Shown: positions 46,440-53,784 of the stretch, piece after piece | Position numbering within the stretch: the first letter of the stretch is position 1 | How the letters are laid out: each line of letters opens with the position of its first letter | Assembly (NCBI GenBank): GCA_001281695.1 | Contig: LJIE01000001.1 | Span: forward strand, 1,936,586 to 2,000,585 | DNA: 64,000 nucleotides | Origin: a bacterium 336/3 | GTDB lineage: Bacteria; Bacteroidota; Bacteroidia; Cytophagales; Thermonemataceae | Reading direction: 5' to 3' | The notes under the pieces: generated by a model | The model's input: the letters and a program-made list of their open reading frames with translations, nothing else | What the model was told of the DNA's origin: nothing | Database searches by the model: none | Made by a program: the position numbers and the translations under genes

Positions 46440-46793
46440 ATGTATCGAGAAAAATATTGTCAGCAAAGAGCTATTCAAATGTATGCCTCTGGACAAACAA
46501 AAACCGAAGTAATAGAAATGCTCAAAGAAGAAAATGCAAAAGAAGAAGAATTAGAAGCATTGGCGGATACATTCTATAAAGATTATCAATTCCTTCAAAA
46601 GCAGAGGCATAAACAACGCAAGCAAGATGCAGAACAAAACATGATAGTAGGTGGTGTTTTGTTGGGTGTGGGTATATTGCTCAGTTTAATACTTTCGGAG
46701 GAAGGAAGCTATAATATATGGTTTACAGGATTGATCATAGGAGGAGCAATTGCTCTTGGAAGAGGAATAATTTTGAAAAATAATACAGATTGA
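46440..46793 (+). CDS. Small membrane protein of unknown function
   Basis: A 117-residue protein. The N-terminal half is soluble and helical and very charged (AIQMYASGQTKTEVIEMLKE, KQRHKQRKQDAEQNM). Two TM segments follow (VGGVLLGVGILLSLIL and FTGLIIGGAIALGRGIIL). It lies 21 bp after the macro-domain gene. No family is recognised. Confidence 0.55.
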   Translation: MYREKYCQQRAIQMYASGQTKTEVIEMLKEENAKEEELEALADTFYKDYQFLQKQRHKQRKQDAEQNMIVGGVLLGVGILLSLILSEEGSYNIWFTGLIIGGAIALGRGIILKNNTD

Positions 46794-46885
46794 ATGAAAT
46801 GAATAAAAGATAATGTTTTTTATACATTACTGGAAACACTTTTATCTTAAATTATATGGGATATATTATGGTATCTGATGAATTG

Positions 46886-46893
46886 TATCTTTG
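46886..46893 (+). promoter_or_regulatory. Candidate -7 promoter element of the restriction-modification gene
   Basis: TATCTTTG matches the Bacteroidota TAnnTTTG element and would start transcription about 57 bases before the ATG at 46957. No TTG is found at the ideal -33 distance. Prediction only. Confidence 0.4.
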
Positions 46894-46956
46894 AGATATT
46901 TGTATTAACTTGGAATCATTGTAGTGTTAGCTTTTACCTGAAAAAATAACAAGTAA

Positions 46957-49900
46957 ATGATTTTAAATGAGTTGAAGCCCCGAAAAGTGCTTAACAAAGC
47001 CTTTTTAAAAGTACGACCCAACAGAATTGAAATAGAAAACTTCAAAAAGAATCTCACCAACTTATTGAATGGGATTAATGAGAAAGAAAGTGAAGAATTT
47101 CATAAAAATTTGGTCATTGACTTTCTAAAGAAAACCTACTACGACCCCAACCATTTTATTAATACCAAAGATAGAAAAGACCTAGTCATTCATAATGGTA
47201 GCAATGCTCAAAGTACTGTAGGGGTGATTATTGAAACCAAAAAGCCCACCAACAAACCTGAAATGCCTACCAAAGAGAATCTGAATGTAAAGGCATTTCA
47301 GGAGCTTGTTTTGTATTATCTCAGAGAGCGAATTATACACAAAAATCTGGAAATCAAAAACTTGATTATTACCAATGTGTATGAGTGGTTTGTTTTTGAT
47401 GCTCATGTTTTTGACAGGCTTTTTGCTCAGAATAAACAATTAGTGAAGTCATTCACAGATTTTGAGGCTGGAACGCTTGTAGAAAGCAAAACGGACTTTT
47501 TCTATGAACAGATTGCCAAACCTTTTATTGCACAAATCAACACAGGGATAGAATTTACTCATTTCGATTTACGAGAGTACACCCCCCTTTTGAGAGGGGT
47601 TGGGTCTGAACATCAAAACAAAGCAGATGACAACCATCTAATTGTCCTTTTCAAACTACTTTCGCCAGAACACCTTTTAAAACTACCTTTTGCCAACGAC
47701 AGCAACAGCCTTGATAAACGCTTCTACAGCGAATTGTTGCATATAATTGGTCTCACCGAAACCAAAGAAGGCGGTAAAAAACTCATTGAACGTAATAAAG
47801 AAGGAGAAAGAAACTCAGGGACAATTTTGGAAGATGCTATCATTCAGTTGGATAGTCTCGATAAAATCAGCCGTTTACCCAATCCATCACAATTTGGTGA
47901 AAATTTTCAGGAACGCCTTTTCAATGTAGCTTTGGAGCTTTCCATCACTTGGATAAACAGAATCTTGTTTCTTAAACTTTTAGAGGCTCAGCTTATCTCT
48001 TACCACAAAGGAGATAAAAATTACGTTTTTTTGAGTCTAGAAAAAATCAAAGATTATGACGATTTGAACAGCTTGTTTTTTCAGGTGCTTGCCCGAAAAC
48101 ATGATGAACGAAACAGTGATGTCAAGAAAGCTTTTGAAAAAGTTCCTTACCTCAATAGTTCTTTGTTTGAGCCTACCGAACTTGAACACACAACATTGTT
48201 TATCAGCAATCTGCGAGATGAAAAAACGATTCCTTTACATTCTAAAACAGTTTTAAAAAACGAACAGGGCAAAACCCTCACAGGAAATCTCAATACCTTA
48301 GAATATCTGTTTCGTTTCTTGGATGCCTACGATTTTAGCTCCGAAGGCTCAGAAGAAATCCAAGAAGACAACAAAACCCTCATCAATGCTTCTGTTTTGG
48401 GTTTGATTTTCGAGAAAATAAACGGCTACAAAGATGGTTCTTTTTTTACACCTGGGTTCATCACAATGTATATGTGTCGTGAAACCATCCGAAAGGCTGT
48501 TTTACAGAAGTTTAATGAAGCTGTGAAAAACACACCCCAAAACTTGAAAAATAAGGAAGCTGTAACACCCCTTACAAAAGGAGATTTACAAATTGGGAGT
48601 GTGTCTGAGGGTGTTAAACGAGAAATTATCCCATACAACCCAAAATTAAAGGAACTTGCCCGAGAACTTAGAAATAATAGCACAAAATCAGAAATTATAC
48701 TCTGGAAAGAACTCAAAGGCAAATTTGAGGGTAAATATGATTTCCACAGACAAAAACCTTTAGACAATTTCATTGCTGACTTCTTCTGTTATGAATTAAA
48801 ATTAGTAATTGAAATTGATGGCGAAACACATAATTGGGAAGAAACACAACAGAAAGATTTTGAAAAAGAAAGTAAGTTAAATGAATTAGGACTCAATGTT
48901 CTACGTTTTCCTGATTCTGATATTTTTAAGCATCTGGAAGCTACACTAGAAACCATTCGTAAATACATTGAAGGTTTTGAAAAAGGCGATTTATCAGAGT
49001 TTCGTTATGAAGATACTCCCTTAAATCCTTTTACAGGCATAATAGTTGAAAATGATACAGCTCTATTAAACAAGGGCTTAAAAACTCCCCTCTTGAGAGG
49101 GGTTGGGGGTGTGTCATCCCTCCTTGAGGAGGGTAAGGGAGGTGTTATATTCAAAACGCTTGATGATGTGTATGAGCAAATTGGTAATGGGAAGCTATTT
49201 ACCAGAAAAGAAGCCAACGAAATTGTAAACAGCCTCAAAATCTGTGACCCTGCTGTGGGTTCAGGGCATTTTTTGGTTTCGGCTCTCAACGAAATCATTG
49301 CCATCAAGAGTGAACTCCAAATTCTGCAAGATGCTCAAGGCAAACGCCTCAAAAACTACACCATAGAAGTGGTAAATGATGAACTCATTGTAACAGATGA
49401 AGATGGAGAGCTTTTTGAGTACAAACCCAAAAGCCCTGAAAGCCAGCGAATACAAGAAACCCTTTTCTATGAAAAGCAGACCATTATCGAGAACTGCCTG
49501 TTTGGAGTGGATATAAACCCCAATTCTGTTAAAATATGCCGTTTGCGTCTCTGGATTGAGCTTCTCAAAAATGCCTATTACAAACACCTCGCTGACCCTC
49601 CTCAAGGAGGGAAAACTCTCAACTCTCCAGAGGGGAGTCACATGGAGTTGCAAACCCTGCCCAATATTGACATCAATATTAAAACAGGCAACTCGCTGGT
49701 GAGTCGTTTTGCCTTAGATGCCGATTTGAGCCAAGCCCTCAAAAAAAGTAAATATACCATTGATAGCTACCAAATAGCCGTAGATACCTACCGAAACGCC
49801 CAAAACAAAGAGCAGAAAAGGGAAATGGAACGCCTCATTGCTGATATTAAATCGGATTTTAGAAGCGAAATAGCCAAAAACGATCCTAAACTCAATAAAA

Positions 49901-51246
49901 AACGAAAACTGGAAGGAGATTTATTTACCCTAATGAACCAGATTTCTGTTTTTGGCGAAACAGAAAAAGAAAAGAAAGAGAAAAACAAAAAAGCTGAAAA
50001 ACTCACCCAAGAAATACAGAAAATTGAAGCCGAAATTGAAGAAATAAAAAACAATAAAATCTTTGAAAATGCTTTTGAATGGCGTTTTGAGTTCCCTGAA
50101 GTCTTAGACAATGAAGGCAATTTTGTCGGTTTTGATGCAGTGATTGGAAATCCGCCATATATTCCATTAGAAGCATTTAGTCTTAATCAAAAGACATTTT
50201 TTAGCAAAAAATATATACAACTAGAAAGAAAATATGAATCATCTGTACCCTTTATTTTAGAAGGTTTAAATATTTTAAACATATCTGGTCTTTTAGCATA
50301 CATAGCACCTATTACTTGGCAAACAGGGGAAAATTATTCGAAGTTCAGGAAATCTTTTTTTGAAAATTTTGGTATAGACAAATTGATAAATCTGCCATTT
50401 AATATTTTTGAAGATGCCTATGTTGATACAGCATTATATTTTATCTCTAAGGAAAGAAAATCTGAATATTCTATTTATTCTTTTGAGAAAAAGGCACAAA
50501 TTAAAACGTTAGAAAACTTAAATTATATAACTTTTAAAACTTCTGACCTTAAAATACCTGATTTTAAAATATTTATTGATAAAACTTCACAGCAGTTTTC
50601 AAGATTTGATTCTAGTGATTTTGTTTCATTTGGTTCTATTACCAAATCAACACAGGGATTATCCAGTAGTAACTTTATAGAAACAAATAATAAGTTATCA
50701 GAATATATTTATCCATTTCTTGAAAAAGGTAATGTTTATAATTACAGTTTAATTAAAGAAAAAATATATAACACAGATTTATCTGATAAAAAAAATCTTT
50801 TGGAATACTATCAAGCTGAACCTAAAATTTTAATAAGACGAATAATTAATCGTCAAAATAGACTATCTGTAGCATATTGTGATGAAAAATTAGTTTTTAA
50901 GAAAGATATAAATCCTTTTATACCAATTGACAACAATTTTGATTGTTTTTATTTGACTGGAATCGTAGCAAGTAAACTTATTTCATTTATTTACTTAAAT
51001 TCCTCAACAATAGCAACAAAAGATGATTTTAGACAAACTACCTTAGGTGAGTTGAGAAAATTGCCTATTCCAAAAGTAAGTATAAATAGACAAAATGGAA
51101 TTAAAATTATTGTTTGTAAAATTTTAGAACTCAAAGCTCAAGACCCAAAAGCAGACACCCAAGCCTTAGAAGCCGAGATAGACCAGATGGTGTATGCGTT
51201 GTATGGGCTTACTGAAGAAGAAATCAAGATTGTGGAGGGTAGTTAA
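46957..51246 (+). CDS. Single-chain Eco57I-like (type IIG/IIL-type) restriction-modification enzyme with inserted DUF559 domain
   Basis: A 1,429-residue protein combining cleavage, methylation and target recognition. A PD-(D/E)XK-like nuclease region lies near residues 60-95 (DRKDLVIHN and VGVIIETKKP). The methyltransferase has motif I CDPAVGSGHFLVSALNEI (about 763) and motif IV DAVIGNPPYIP (about 1063). The target-recognition region is about 1085-1390. Residues about 521-731 are an extra block with a DUF559 nuclease domain (560-675), flanked by repeat-derived peptides (TPLTKGD, TPLLRGVGGV). Two more repeat-derived inserts occur at YTPLLRGVGS (about 207) and ADPPQGGKTLNSPEGS (about 878). All keep the frame open. 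Confidence 0.88.
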   Translation: MILNELKPRKVLNKAFLKVRPNRIEIENFKKNLTNLLNGINEKESEEFHKNLVIDFLKKTYYDPNHFINTKDRKDLVIHNGSNAQSTVGVIIETKKPTNKPEMPTKENLNVKAFQELVLYYLRERIIHKNLEIKNLIITNVYEWFVFDAHVFDRLFAQNKQLVKSFTDFEAGTLVESKTDFFYEQIAKPFIAQINTGIEFTHFDLREYTPLLRGVGSEHQNKADDNHLIVLFKLLSPEHLLKLPFANDSNSLDKRFYSELLHIIGLTETKEGGKKLIERNKEGERNSGTILEDAIIQLDSLDKISRLPNPSQFGENFQERLFNVALELSITWINRILFLKLLEAQLISYHKGDKNYVFLSLEKIKDYDDLNSLFFQVLARKHDERNSDVKKAFEKVPYLNSSLFEPTELEHTTLFISNLRDEKTIPLHSKTVLKNEQGKTLTGNLNTLEYLFRFLDAYDFSSEGSEEIQEDNKTLINASVLGLIFEKINGYKDGSFFTPGFITMYMCRETIRKAVLQKFNEAVKNTPQNLKNKEAVTPLTKGDLQIGSVSEGVKREIIPYNPKLKELARELRNNSTKSEIILWKELKGKFEGKYDFHRQKPLDNFIADFFCYELKLVIEIDGETHNWEETQQKDFEKESKLNELGLNVLRFPDSDIFKHLEATLETIRKYIEGFEKGDLSEFRYEDTPLNPFTGIIVENDTALLNKGLKTPLLRGVGGVSSLLEEGKGGVIFKTLDDVYEQIGNGKLFTRKEANEIVNSLKICDPAVGSGHFLVSALNEIIAIKSELQILQDAQGKRLKNYTIEVVNDELIVTDEDGELFEYKPKSPESQRIQETLFYEKQTIIENCLFGVDINPNSVKICRLRLWIELLKNAYYKHLADPPQGGKTLNSPEGSHMELQTLPNIDINIKTGNSLVSRFALDADLSQALKKSKYTIDSYQIAVDTYRNAQNKEQKREMERLIADIKSDFRSEIAKNDPKLNKKRKLEGDLFTLMNQISVFGETEKEKKEKNKKAEKLTQEIQKIEAEIEEIKNNKIFENAFEWRFEFPEVLDNEGNFVGFDAVIGNPPYIPLEAFSLNQKTFFSKKYIQLERKYESSVPFILEGLNILNISGLLAYIAPITWQTGENYSKFRKSFFENFGIDKLINLPFNIFEDAYVDTALYFISKERKSEYSIYSFEKKAQIKTLENLNYITFKTSDLKIPDFKIFIDKTSQQFSRFDSSDFVSFGSITKSTQGLSSSNFIETNNKLSEYIYPFLEKGNVYNYSLIKEKIYNTDLSDKKNLLEYYQAEPKILIRRIINRQNRLSVAYCDEKLVFKKDINPFIPIDNNFDCFYLTGIVASKLISFIYLNSSTIATKDDFRQTTLGELRKLPIPKVSINRQNGIKIIVCKILELKAQDPKADTQALEAEIDQMVYALYGLTEEEIKIVEGS
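47578..47606 (+). repeat. In-frame half-copy of the palindromic repeat
   Basis: CCCCCCTTTTGAGAGGGGTTGG, encoding TPLLRGVG, matches the CCCCTCTTGAGAGGGG half of the downstream array units. It lies inside the restriction-modification gene between FDLREY and the conserved LFKLLSPEHLLKLPF block. Confidence 0.75.
48564..48620 (+). repeat. Diverged palindromic-repeat copy at left edge of the DUF559 insert
   Basis: The sequence around ACACCCCTTACAAAAGGAG and GTGTGTCTGAGGGTGTT retains the order and ends of a repeat half-unit but has many changes. It runs straight into the DUF559 start KREIIPYNPKL. Confidence 0.5.
49081..49146 (+). repeat. Palindromic-repeat copy at right edge of the DUF559 insert
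   Basis: Both palindromes of the array unit are present: TCCCCTCTTGAGAGGGG then, after GTTGGGGGTGTGTC, ATCCCTCCTTGAGGAGGG. Compared with array units the two hairpins are in the opposite order. Translated in frame as TPLLRGVGGV-SSLLEEGKGGV. Confidence 0.8.
49591..49634 (+). repeat. In-frame palindromic-repeat copy in the methyltransferase region
   Basis: CCCTCCTCAAGGAGGG, identical to the first hairpin of the array units, is followed by AAAACTCTCAACTCTCCAGAGGGGAG, a diverged second hairpin. Translated as DPPQGGKTLNSPEGSH, it interrupts the conserved KNAYYKHLA / MELQTLPNIDINIKTGNSLV block. Confidence 0.75.
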
Positions 51247-51247
51247 A

Positions 51248-52257
51248 CTGCAAGGAGGCAATAAAGTCCCCTCTTGAGAGGGGATTGAGGGGTGTGTCTT
51301 TTGTAGATATTGTTTTTTCTTGGAAACTGCATCAAAAACATCTCCCTAAACCTCCTCAAGGAGGGAATAAAAGTTTCTCTTTAGAAGGGATTGAGGGTGT
51401 GTCTTTTGTAGATATTGTTTTTTCTTGGAAACTGCATCAAAAACATCTCCCTAAACCTCCTCAAGGAGGGAATAAAAGTTTCTCTTGAGAGGGGATTGAG
51501 GGTGTGTCTTTTGTAGATATTGTTTTTTATAGAAACTGTATCAAAAACACCTCCCTAAACCTCCTCAAGGAGGGAATAAAAGTCCCCTCTTGAGAGGGGA
51601 TTGAGGGGTGTGTCTTTTGTAGATATTGTTTTTTCTTGGAAACTGCCTCAAAAACACCTCCCAACCCTCCTCAAGGAGGGAATAAAAGTCCCCTCTTGAG
51701 AGGGGATTGAGGGGTGTGTCTTTTGTAGATATTGTTTTTTATAGAAACTGTATCAAAAACACCTCCTAACCCTCCTCAAGGAGGGAATAAAAAAGTTTTC
51801 TTTTGAGAGGGGATTGAGGGTGTGTCTTTTGTAGATATTGTTTTTTCTTGGGGACTGCATCAAAAACACCTCCCTAACCCTCCTCAAGGAGGGAATAAAA
51901 GTTTTCTCTTGAGAGGGGATTGAGGGTGTCTTTTGTAGATATTGTTTTTTATAGAAACTGTATCAAAAACACCTCCCAACCCTCCTCAAGGAGGGAATAA
52001 AAAAAAATCTCCTGAGAGGGGATTGAGGGGTGTGTCTTTTGTAGATATTGTTTTTTCTTGGAAACTGCATCAAAAACACCTCCCTAACCCTCCTCAAGGA
52101 GGGAATAAAAAAGTTTTCTCTTGAGAGGGGATTGAGGGTGTGTCTTTTGTAGATATTGTTTTTTCTTGGAAACTGCATCAAAAACACCTCCCAACCCTCC
52201 TCAAGGACAAGGAGGGAATAAAAGTCCCCTCTTGAGAGGGGATTGAGGGGTGTCTTT
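51248..52257 (+). repeat. Tandem array of ~105-bp units, each with two GC-rich hairpins
   Basis: The roughly 1,050-bp gap between the restriction-modification gene and the McrB-like gene is filled by nine near-identical units plus partial ends. Occurrences of TCTTTTGTAGATATTG begin at 51297, 51402, 51507, 51613, 51719, 51825, 51929, 52035 and 52143; a truncated one is at 52253. Spacing is 104-110 bp. Each unit carries CCTCCTCAAGGAGG, an AATAAAAG spacer, a CCCCTCTTGAGAGGGG-type hairpin, ATTGAGGGGTGTGTC and a T-rich link. Two link variants occur (CTTGGAAACTGCAT and ATAGAAACTGTAT). No unique spacers are present. Because 105 is a multiple of three, open frames run across units, but these are not convincing genes. 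Confidence 0.95.
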
Positions 52258-52296
52258 AAAAACTATATGTATTTTAAAAATTAACTTCATTATAAA

Positions 52297-53784
52297 ATGG
52301 CAACATATTTCTGTAATTGTGGAGAAAATATTGATAACTATAATCTGTGTATAGAGCATAATGTAGCAGGTTTTCCATCAAATGGCTATGAAATAGGAAG
52401 TCTTGTGTATTTAATTGTCAAAGAAAAAGGCAACTGGAAATTGGGTGCAAAAGGCATTTTAAAGAACATTACTAATAATAAGCCTTGGGCAGATGCAGAA
52501 AAATACCAATCTGCATTTGATATTGATTGGCAAACTCTTACCCCAAAAATAGATGTTACAACAGATTTACAAAATATTTATAAACCAAACTTTGGTCTTG
52601 CTATTCAAGGTAAAAAAGATATTGATACTTTTCAGGGCAAGGGTGATGAGTTAAAAGAAAAATTTAATAGTTATTTTAAAAATGAAAACCCAACTAAGAA
52701 TATAATGGTCGACTCAGTGTTACTCACAGCCATCAAAACGAAGCCTTTTATTATTCTGGCGGGTATATCGGGAACTGGCAAATCGAGGTTGGTCAGAACG
52801 CTTGCTTATCAAACTTGTAATAAAGAAGAACTGAGACAAGAACCCAAAAAACCTGGGAATTTTGAGTTAATCCCTGTCAGACCCAATTGGCATGATTCTT
52901 CTGAACTAATGGGTTATGTCAGCAGAATAAATGGGGTAAAATACATTACTACATCATTTTTAAAATTTATTGCAAAAGCTTGGAAACACAAGGAAATACC
53001 TTTTTTTCTTTGCTTAGACGAAATGAATCTTGCACCTGTAGAACAATACTTTGCCGAATATCTGAGTATTATAGAAACACGACAAGTCCAAAATAAGGAG
53101 GTTGTTACAGACTTTTTAATTTCAAAAGTAAGTTTTGAGAATGATGGTGAGGGTTTGTACTTTCAATTATTGAAAGATTTAGGATTGGATGCAAGCCAAT
53201 TTCCTGAAGGAATTAGCATTCCAAGCAACCTGATTGTAATGGGGACAGTCAATATGGACGAAACTACCCACTCTTTCAGCAGAAAGGTTCTTGATAGAGC
53301 TATGACTTTTGAAATGAATGAGGTGGACTTAAAAGCTGGTTTGGAGGCTTCTAAAAATGACTGGAGTTACCCTTCTGAATATATCACAGCAACTGAAGTA
53401 TTGGGAAGATATACTTCAGGAGCAGAAGTGTACAAAGAGTCTTTTATAGATAGAGAGGAAGTATTGAAATTTCTTGAAGAAAAAATAAATGCTGTTTTAA
53501 AAAAGACACCTTTCCAAATTGCTTATCGGGTCAGGGACGAATTTCTCATTTATTGCTATTATGCAAGTCTTAATTCAACTAACCAAGATTGGCTAACCAA
53601 TGCTCTTGATGCCATGACACACATGAAAATTTTATCTCGAATAGAAGGAGATGAGACAAAAACGGAAAAGGTATTAAGAGAATTAAAAGGCAGATTAACC
53701 GAAAAGTACAAAAAATCCTATGACAAACTCGAAGAAATGGAAGCTCGACTCAAGGATAATGGTTACACATCATTCTGGTCATAA
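52297..53784 (+). CDS. McrB-like AAA+ ATPase of a two-gene restriction system
   Basis: A 495-residue protein. Residues 1-110 form an N-terminal domain (GSLVYLIVKEKGNWKLGAKG), possibly a PUA/EVE-like modified-base reader. The AAA+ domain has Walker A GISGTGKS near residue 155, VRPNWHDSSELMGYV, Walker B FLCLDEMNLAPVEQYFAEYL and the sensor-like VMGTVNMDETTHSFSRKVLD. This set is characteristic of McrB-type ATPases paired with DUF2357 nucleases, which cut modified or foreign DNA. The partner starts at the stop codon (TAATG overlap), so the two are translationally coupled. The start is 40 bp beyond the repeat array. Confidence 0.85.
   Translation: MATYFCNCGENIDNYNLCIEHNVAGFPSNGYEIGSLVYLIVKEKGNWKLGAKGILKNITNNKPWADAEKYQSAFDIDWQTLTPKIDVTTDLQNIYKPNFGLAIQGKKDIDTFQGKGDELKEKFNSYFKNENPTKNIMVDSVLLTAIKTKPFIILAGISGTGKSRLVRTLAYQTCNKEELRQEPKKPGNFELIPVRPNWHDSSELMGYVSRINGVKYITTSFLKFIAKAWKHKEIPFFLCLDEMNLAPVEQYFAEYLSIIETRQVQNKEVVTDFLISKVSFENDGEGLYFQLLKDLGLDASQFPEGISIPSNLIVMGTVNMDETTHSFSRKVLDRAMTFEMNEVDLKAGLEASKNDWSYPSEYITATEVLGRYTSGAEVYKESFIDREEVLKFLEEKINAVLKKTPFQIAYRVRDEFLIYCYYASLNSTNQDWLTNALDAMTHMKILSRIEGDETKTEKVLRELKGRLTEKYKKSYDKLEEMEARLKDNGYTSFWS

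Follow-up and report, generated by a model that had tools for sequence, protein, structure and literature searches.

E. coli has been known since the 1990s to contain triplex-forming repeats of the BoxC type, which occur in hundreds of genomes; in E. coli, the ends of their inverted pairs have different loop types (A/B). The BoxC/PIT/TM repeat consists of a pyrimidine stem, a loop, a purine stem, a 3-nt loop and a purine third strand in mirror order. It frequently stands in inverted pairs, is found in many genomes, and has been described without a mobility gene and as always intergenic in E. coli (PMC4666352). Holder et al. (2015; PMC4666352) demonstrated that the E. coli motif forms a triplex in vitro; they counted 23 copies in K-12, noted inverted pairs, linked the motif to genome instability, and sought transposases and integrases near the motifs and reported none. 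REP elements and REPINs with their RAYT are likewise short dispersed hairpin repeats, solo and paired, and flank a one-gene full version. Rickettsia palindromic elements are palindromic repeats that lie in frame in protein genes, and we know of no nuclease gene in them. The EDxHD homing endonucleases include I-Bth0305I (PDB 3R3P), which is encoded as a homing endonuclease of a group I intron. The DUF559/YcjD family (PF04480; PMC1189080) is known only as a predicted nuclease, with no element described for it, and YcjD already appears in the PD-(D/E)XK family list of a 2005 paper.

Within the window, the whole stretch of 64,000 nucleotides analysed here, a DUF559 domain lies in frame inside a restriction-modification gene. 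The repeats beside it share the build and the inverted pairing of BoxC; unlike BoxC as described, they are tied to DUF559 and lie in frame inside genes. Compared with REP/RAYT, the element has a PD-(D/E)XK nuclease and no Y1 HUH transposase, sits in frame in genes and re-occupies one site. Its predicted fold and active-site signature are those of the EDxHD homing endonucleases and Vsr; in contrast to the former, there is no intron or intein here, and the element has its own hairpin ends and solo derivatives. The in-frame position is shared with the Rickettsia elements, while the sequence probably differs. The parts are known separately; a search of the open-licence literature, which leaves most subscription journals outside, found no paper on a link between DUF559 and triplex repeats or on the resulting element class. 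We conclude that the block is probably a single copy of a small element that spreads itself, with its nuclease driving homing or insertion. The mobility of repeat and nuclease as one unit is well supported, and the nuclease would be the driver of the spread.

An inserted nuclease block in a restriction-modification gene

Profile search of the host protein gave the domain order DUF7149, DUF7814, [DUF559], Eco57I MTase and TaqI_C, with PF04480 matching residues 563–671 (E 1e-25; 90.2 bits against a curated cut-off of 20.6). About 20 of the 27 homologous loci in the comparison set align through query residues ~521/733 without the DUF559 block, and the block in the 1429-aa gene is therefore an insertion (Table 1). 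The sequence-only reading, which took the host protein to be continuous on either side and looked to uninserted relatives as its check, is thus borne out. Two homologues, L012 and L013, carry DUF559 at the same position as the window gene.

Table 1 Features of the host gene and its repeats (positions are those of the window)
Feature	Position	Strand	Remarks
Host gene, type IIG-like restriction-modification protein	46957..51246	+	ORF of 1429 aa including the insertion
Solo repeat copy in frame	47578..47612	+	Peptide TPLLRGVGS, missing from homologues
Inserted element, 618 bp = 206 codons	48529..49146	+	Terminal inverted AACACACCCC / GGGAGGTGTT; bounds approximate, termini placed as in the RecG and mutase alleles
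Left end, degenerate repeat remnant	48529..48617	+	Terminal 13-mer match only
DUF559 nuclease domain (PF04480)	48643..48969	+	Catalytic signature E579, W583, Q599, D608, E619, D621, H625, D634 intact
Right-end triplex motif 1	49087..49114	+	CCCCTCTT-GAGAGGGG, loop, GGGGTGTG; mirrored third strand with T facing A; read from sequence
Right-end triplex motif 2	49117..49146	+	CCCTCC TTGA GGAGGG TAA GGGAGG TGTT
Solo repeat copy in frame	49576..49635	+	Peptide DPPQGGKTLNSPEG; at the site of the L034 DUF559 element
Array, ten direct copies	51238..52283	+	Spacing ~105 bp

The same reading had placed palindromes of the array family at both edges of the in-frame insertion. This stands for the right edge, where two clean array-family motifs score 55 against a shuffle null maximum of 27. 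The left edge is degenerate, its sole match being the terminal 13-mer AAAAACACACCCC / TTGGGAGTGTGTC (p 0.005 against the right edge and 0.045 against the array unit). Each array unit comprises two triplex motifs in inverted orientation (~66 bp together) and a non-motif spacer of ~37 bp; short stretches of the array remain open as reading frames. Allowing up to 3 mismatches, no copy of the window repeat was found elsewhere in the window genome, the repeat being confined to the host-gene locus, which counts against a self-spreading element, and this whole genome has a single DUF559.

Two further copies stand in frame in the host gene as solo repeats, neither with a DUF559 (p <= 0.0005). Where the window gene has the second of them, the homologue L034 has a whole but different DUF559 element, and at this cassette site the homologues L012 and L024 have palindromes alone, which argues that repeats and cassette use the same sites. 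The DUF559 of the window and that of L012 are 89% identical in amino acids with four-fold synonymous sites saturated, indicating that the embedded domain is under purifying selection. Given the same saturation, the idea that the window copy arrived recently by horizontal transfer found no support.

Downstream of the array, positions 52297–53784 encode an AAA-type protein that matches the candidate defence model PADLOC PDC-M26A; given this match, the locus possibly belongs to a defence island.

Triplex motifs beside DUF559 genes

PF04480 is present in 170 of 296 genomes of the window's phylum. We surveyed 80 DUF559 loci of the phylum with 6 kb per side, a sample of stronger hits only in which long ORFs were deliberately over-sampled. 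Strict GC-rich palindromes reached 4.38/kb within 100 bp of DUF559 compared with 0.11–0.13/kb beyond 2 kb at these loci, a ~40-fold enrichment. They lay on both sides of the gene at 33 of the 80 loci and at 1 of 312 shifted pseudo-sites; other DUF559 genes are thus palindrome-flanked, as the sequence-only reading had expected. The left and right repeats of one locus matched each other (at least 40 bits) in 37/80 cases, as against 68/6320 between loci and 0/80 for distal sequence. The repeat–nuclease–repeat arrangement was also seen in examples from Alphaproteobacteria, Cyanobacteria and Deinococcota.

Each hairpin has a pyrimidine/purine stem; after a short loop comes a purine strand in mirror order, with A or T facing A, in keeping with the intrastrand-triplex rule. 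When the script required the third strand, the motif was found at 50 of the 80 DUF559 loci and at 8 of the 312 controls, and its density was 3.2/kb beside DUF559 versus 0.03–0.05/kb at a distance of 2–6 kb. Judged by their sequence, the palindromes flanking DUF559 are BoxC/PIT/TM intrastrand-triplex motifs, an identity that the earlier reading did not recognise.

The nuclease might be a bystander of these motifs. They would then spread by slippage, by recombination, or through RAYT or another transposase, and DUF559 would lie between them because the motifs are recombinogenic. The link between the motif and genome instability (Holder et al., 2015; PMC4666352) fits this view, as do the motifs in some genomes without DUF559 and the presence of some Y1 transposase in 14 of 16 genomes searched. 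However, edge palindromes were found at 23 of 26 DUF559 loci but at 0 of 29 Vsr and 1 of 29 HNH loci of the same phylum, although these are nucleases too, and the DUF559 active site is invariant. Within genomes, moreover, repeat similarity follows nuclease identity across loci (rho 0.67, n = 32), a correlation also expected from duplication of whole units, which is itself mobility. The repeat-flanked unit contains no Y1 (HUH) transposase, only DUF559, and in one genome, G084, the element is intact although the whole genome gave no Y1 match. We therefore regard spread without the nuclease as unlikely. The likeness to REP/RAYT pairs proposed in the earlier reading holds for the dispersed solo copies that track the nuclease and fails for the transposase, the element not being a RAYT.

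At least five CCTCTCC..GGAGAGG palindromes were present in 24 of 126 genomes with a strong DUF559 and in 4 of 170 without (Fisher, about 1e-6). Three motif-rich genomes have no detectable DUF559 (G086, 34 copies; G001, 12; G055, 6; L209–L220). In these, either the nuclease has been lost or the motif has another driver, and they count against a necessary role of DUF559.

The DUF559 nuclease

The residues E, W, Q, D-F, E-x-D-G..H and D show no variation across all 85 copies compared (strong hits only), 45 of which lie inside host proteins, essential ones included. The profile of the window DUF559 matched 3HRL (E 2e-33) and, with E 1.6e-6, the catalytic domain of I-Bth0305I, and its predicted fold ranks these two first and Vsr lower. 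Sequence and model together point to a PD-(D/E)XK/Vsr-like fold with the corresponding active-site residues. A Caulobacter DUF559 protein is needed for the SOS response in cells without a cytosine methylase, and its authors interpret it as a mismatch-repair enzyme (PMC12907096); we count the SOS requirement for an element driven by the nuclease and the mismatch-repair interpretation against it.

Unrelated hosts and allele series

In-frame DUF559 hosts are mutually unrelated: they include LeuRS, MetH, RecG, HemF, HisA/F and a PurL-type amidotransferase, and further a methylmalonyl-CoA mutase fusion, HsdR, HsdM, type ISP enzymes and UvrD-like helicases. LeuRS has DUF559 in frame at aa ~322 and ~562 in different genome groups (L091, L093, L106 and L113 versus L101, L103 and L105).

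Empty, solo-repeat and full alleles occur within a single genus at the RecG site, and at the mutase site a single genus has these three and truncated alleles as well. The full allele requires 5 changes on the RecG tree, where well supported branches force at least 3; the mutase tree calls for 10, at least 4 of them forced, and this is no fewer than with shuffled labels. Sequence identity between DUF559 copies does not follow that between their host genes (rho −0.02). Both series thus combine presence and absence at a fixed site with horizontal spread, and the homing-like behaviour suggested by the sequence-only reading reappears here as alleles scattered over the host-gene trees. Such repeated gain and loss at one site is how homing elements behave. 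At several host sites, an old insertion followed by losses and recombination could account for the pattern. No target-site duplication was apparent at the RecG and mutase junctions in comparisons with relatives only ~80% alike, which speaks against a DDE transposase, though not decisively.

These alleles also weaken the idea that DUF559 was recruited by fusion to serve this restriction-modification protein in restriction or repair. Several hosts are indeed of this type (HsdR, HsdM, type ISP, Eco57I), and the embedded domain is under strong purifying selection. Nevertheless, LeuRS, MetH, HemF, HisA/F and the mutase are hosts too, a single site is occupied in some members of a genus and empty in others, and solo repeats insert without the domain, making recruitment very improbable. 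Also very improbable is a splicing element, an intron-like or intein-like insert that leaves the RNA or the protein and uses DUF559 for homing. Kinship to the intron-encoded I-Bth0305I and the essential genes among the targets would suit it, but there is no Rfam match in 46500–52500 and no intein (Hint) domain among the Pfam matches of the host proteins. Moreover, the reading frame stays open through the insert, and at 30–90 bp the solo copies are too short for an intein. With the tests for RAYT, intein and intron having failed, the element falls outside those classes.

A proposed model for the spread of the element

The self-spreading element that we favour would consist of a gene for DUF559, an EDxHD/Vsr-like PD-(D/E)XK nuclease, between two inverted ends, each a putative intrastrand-triplex (BoxC-type) hairpin with its head outward. 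The pyrimidine-headed ends are stop-free in the needed frame, so that the host protein stays readable after insertion in a tolerant loop. DUF559 may nick or cut DNA at uninserted alleles, at the repeat ends or at both, and repair of the break would copy the element into the site, which amounts to homing; less often, the element might be copied to a new site via short homology. Solo repeats would be non-autonomous derivatives formed by internal deletion and still spreadable by the same nuclease. In behaviour, the element would combine traits of REP elements with those of homing endonuclease genes.

Whether this extends to a widespread bacterial element class, in which DUF559 recognises triplex-forming hairpin ends and spreads itself and solo BoxC-type repeats, in frame in essential genes and without splicing, is a proposal to which we give even odds. 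The element may explain the long-standing puzzle of BoxC/triplex repeats, whose spread had no known agent. It ties DUF559 genes, common and unexplained, to triplex repeats and makes the question of their spread directly testable. It would also represent selfish DNA living in essential enzymes (LeuRS, MetH, RecG) without splicing, and would account for many of the odd in-frame DUF559 'fusions' in annotation.

In E. coli, the DUF559 gene is ycjD, whose neighbours are sapF and fabI. A BoxC copy adjoins it downstream and thus on one side only, which counts against the favoured reading. The K-12 ycjD (L233, 1977–2330) lies in a region covered to at least 80% in 3362 of 5426 E. coli genomes. The three ycjD-less strains that we inspected do not offer a clean empty site, as they have an efflux operon beside sapF. 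In one E. coli strain (L237), an internal deletion truncates ycjD.
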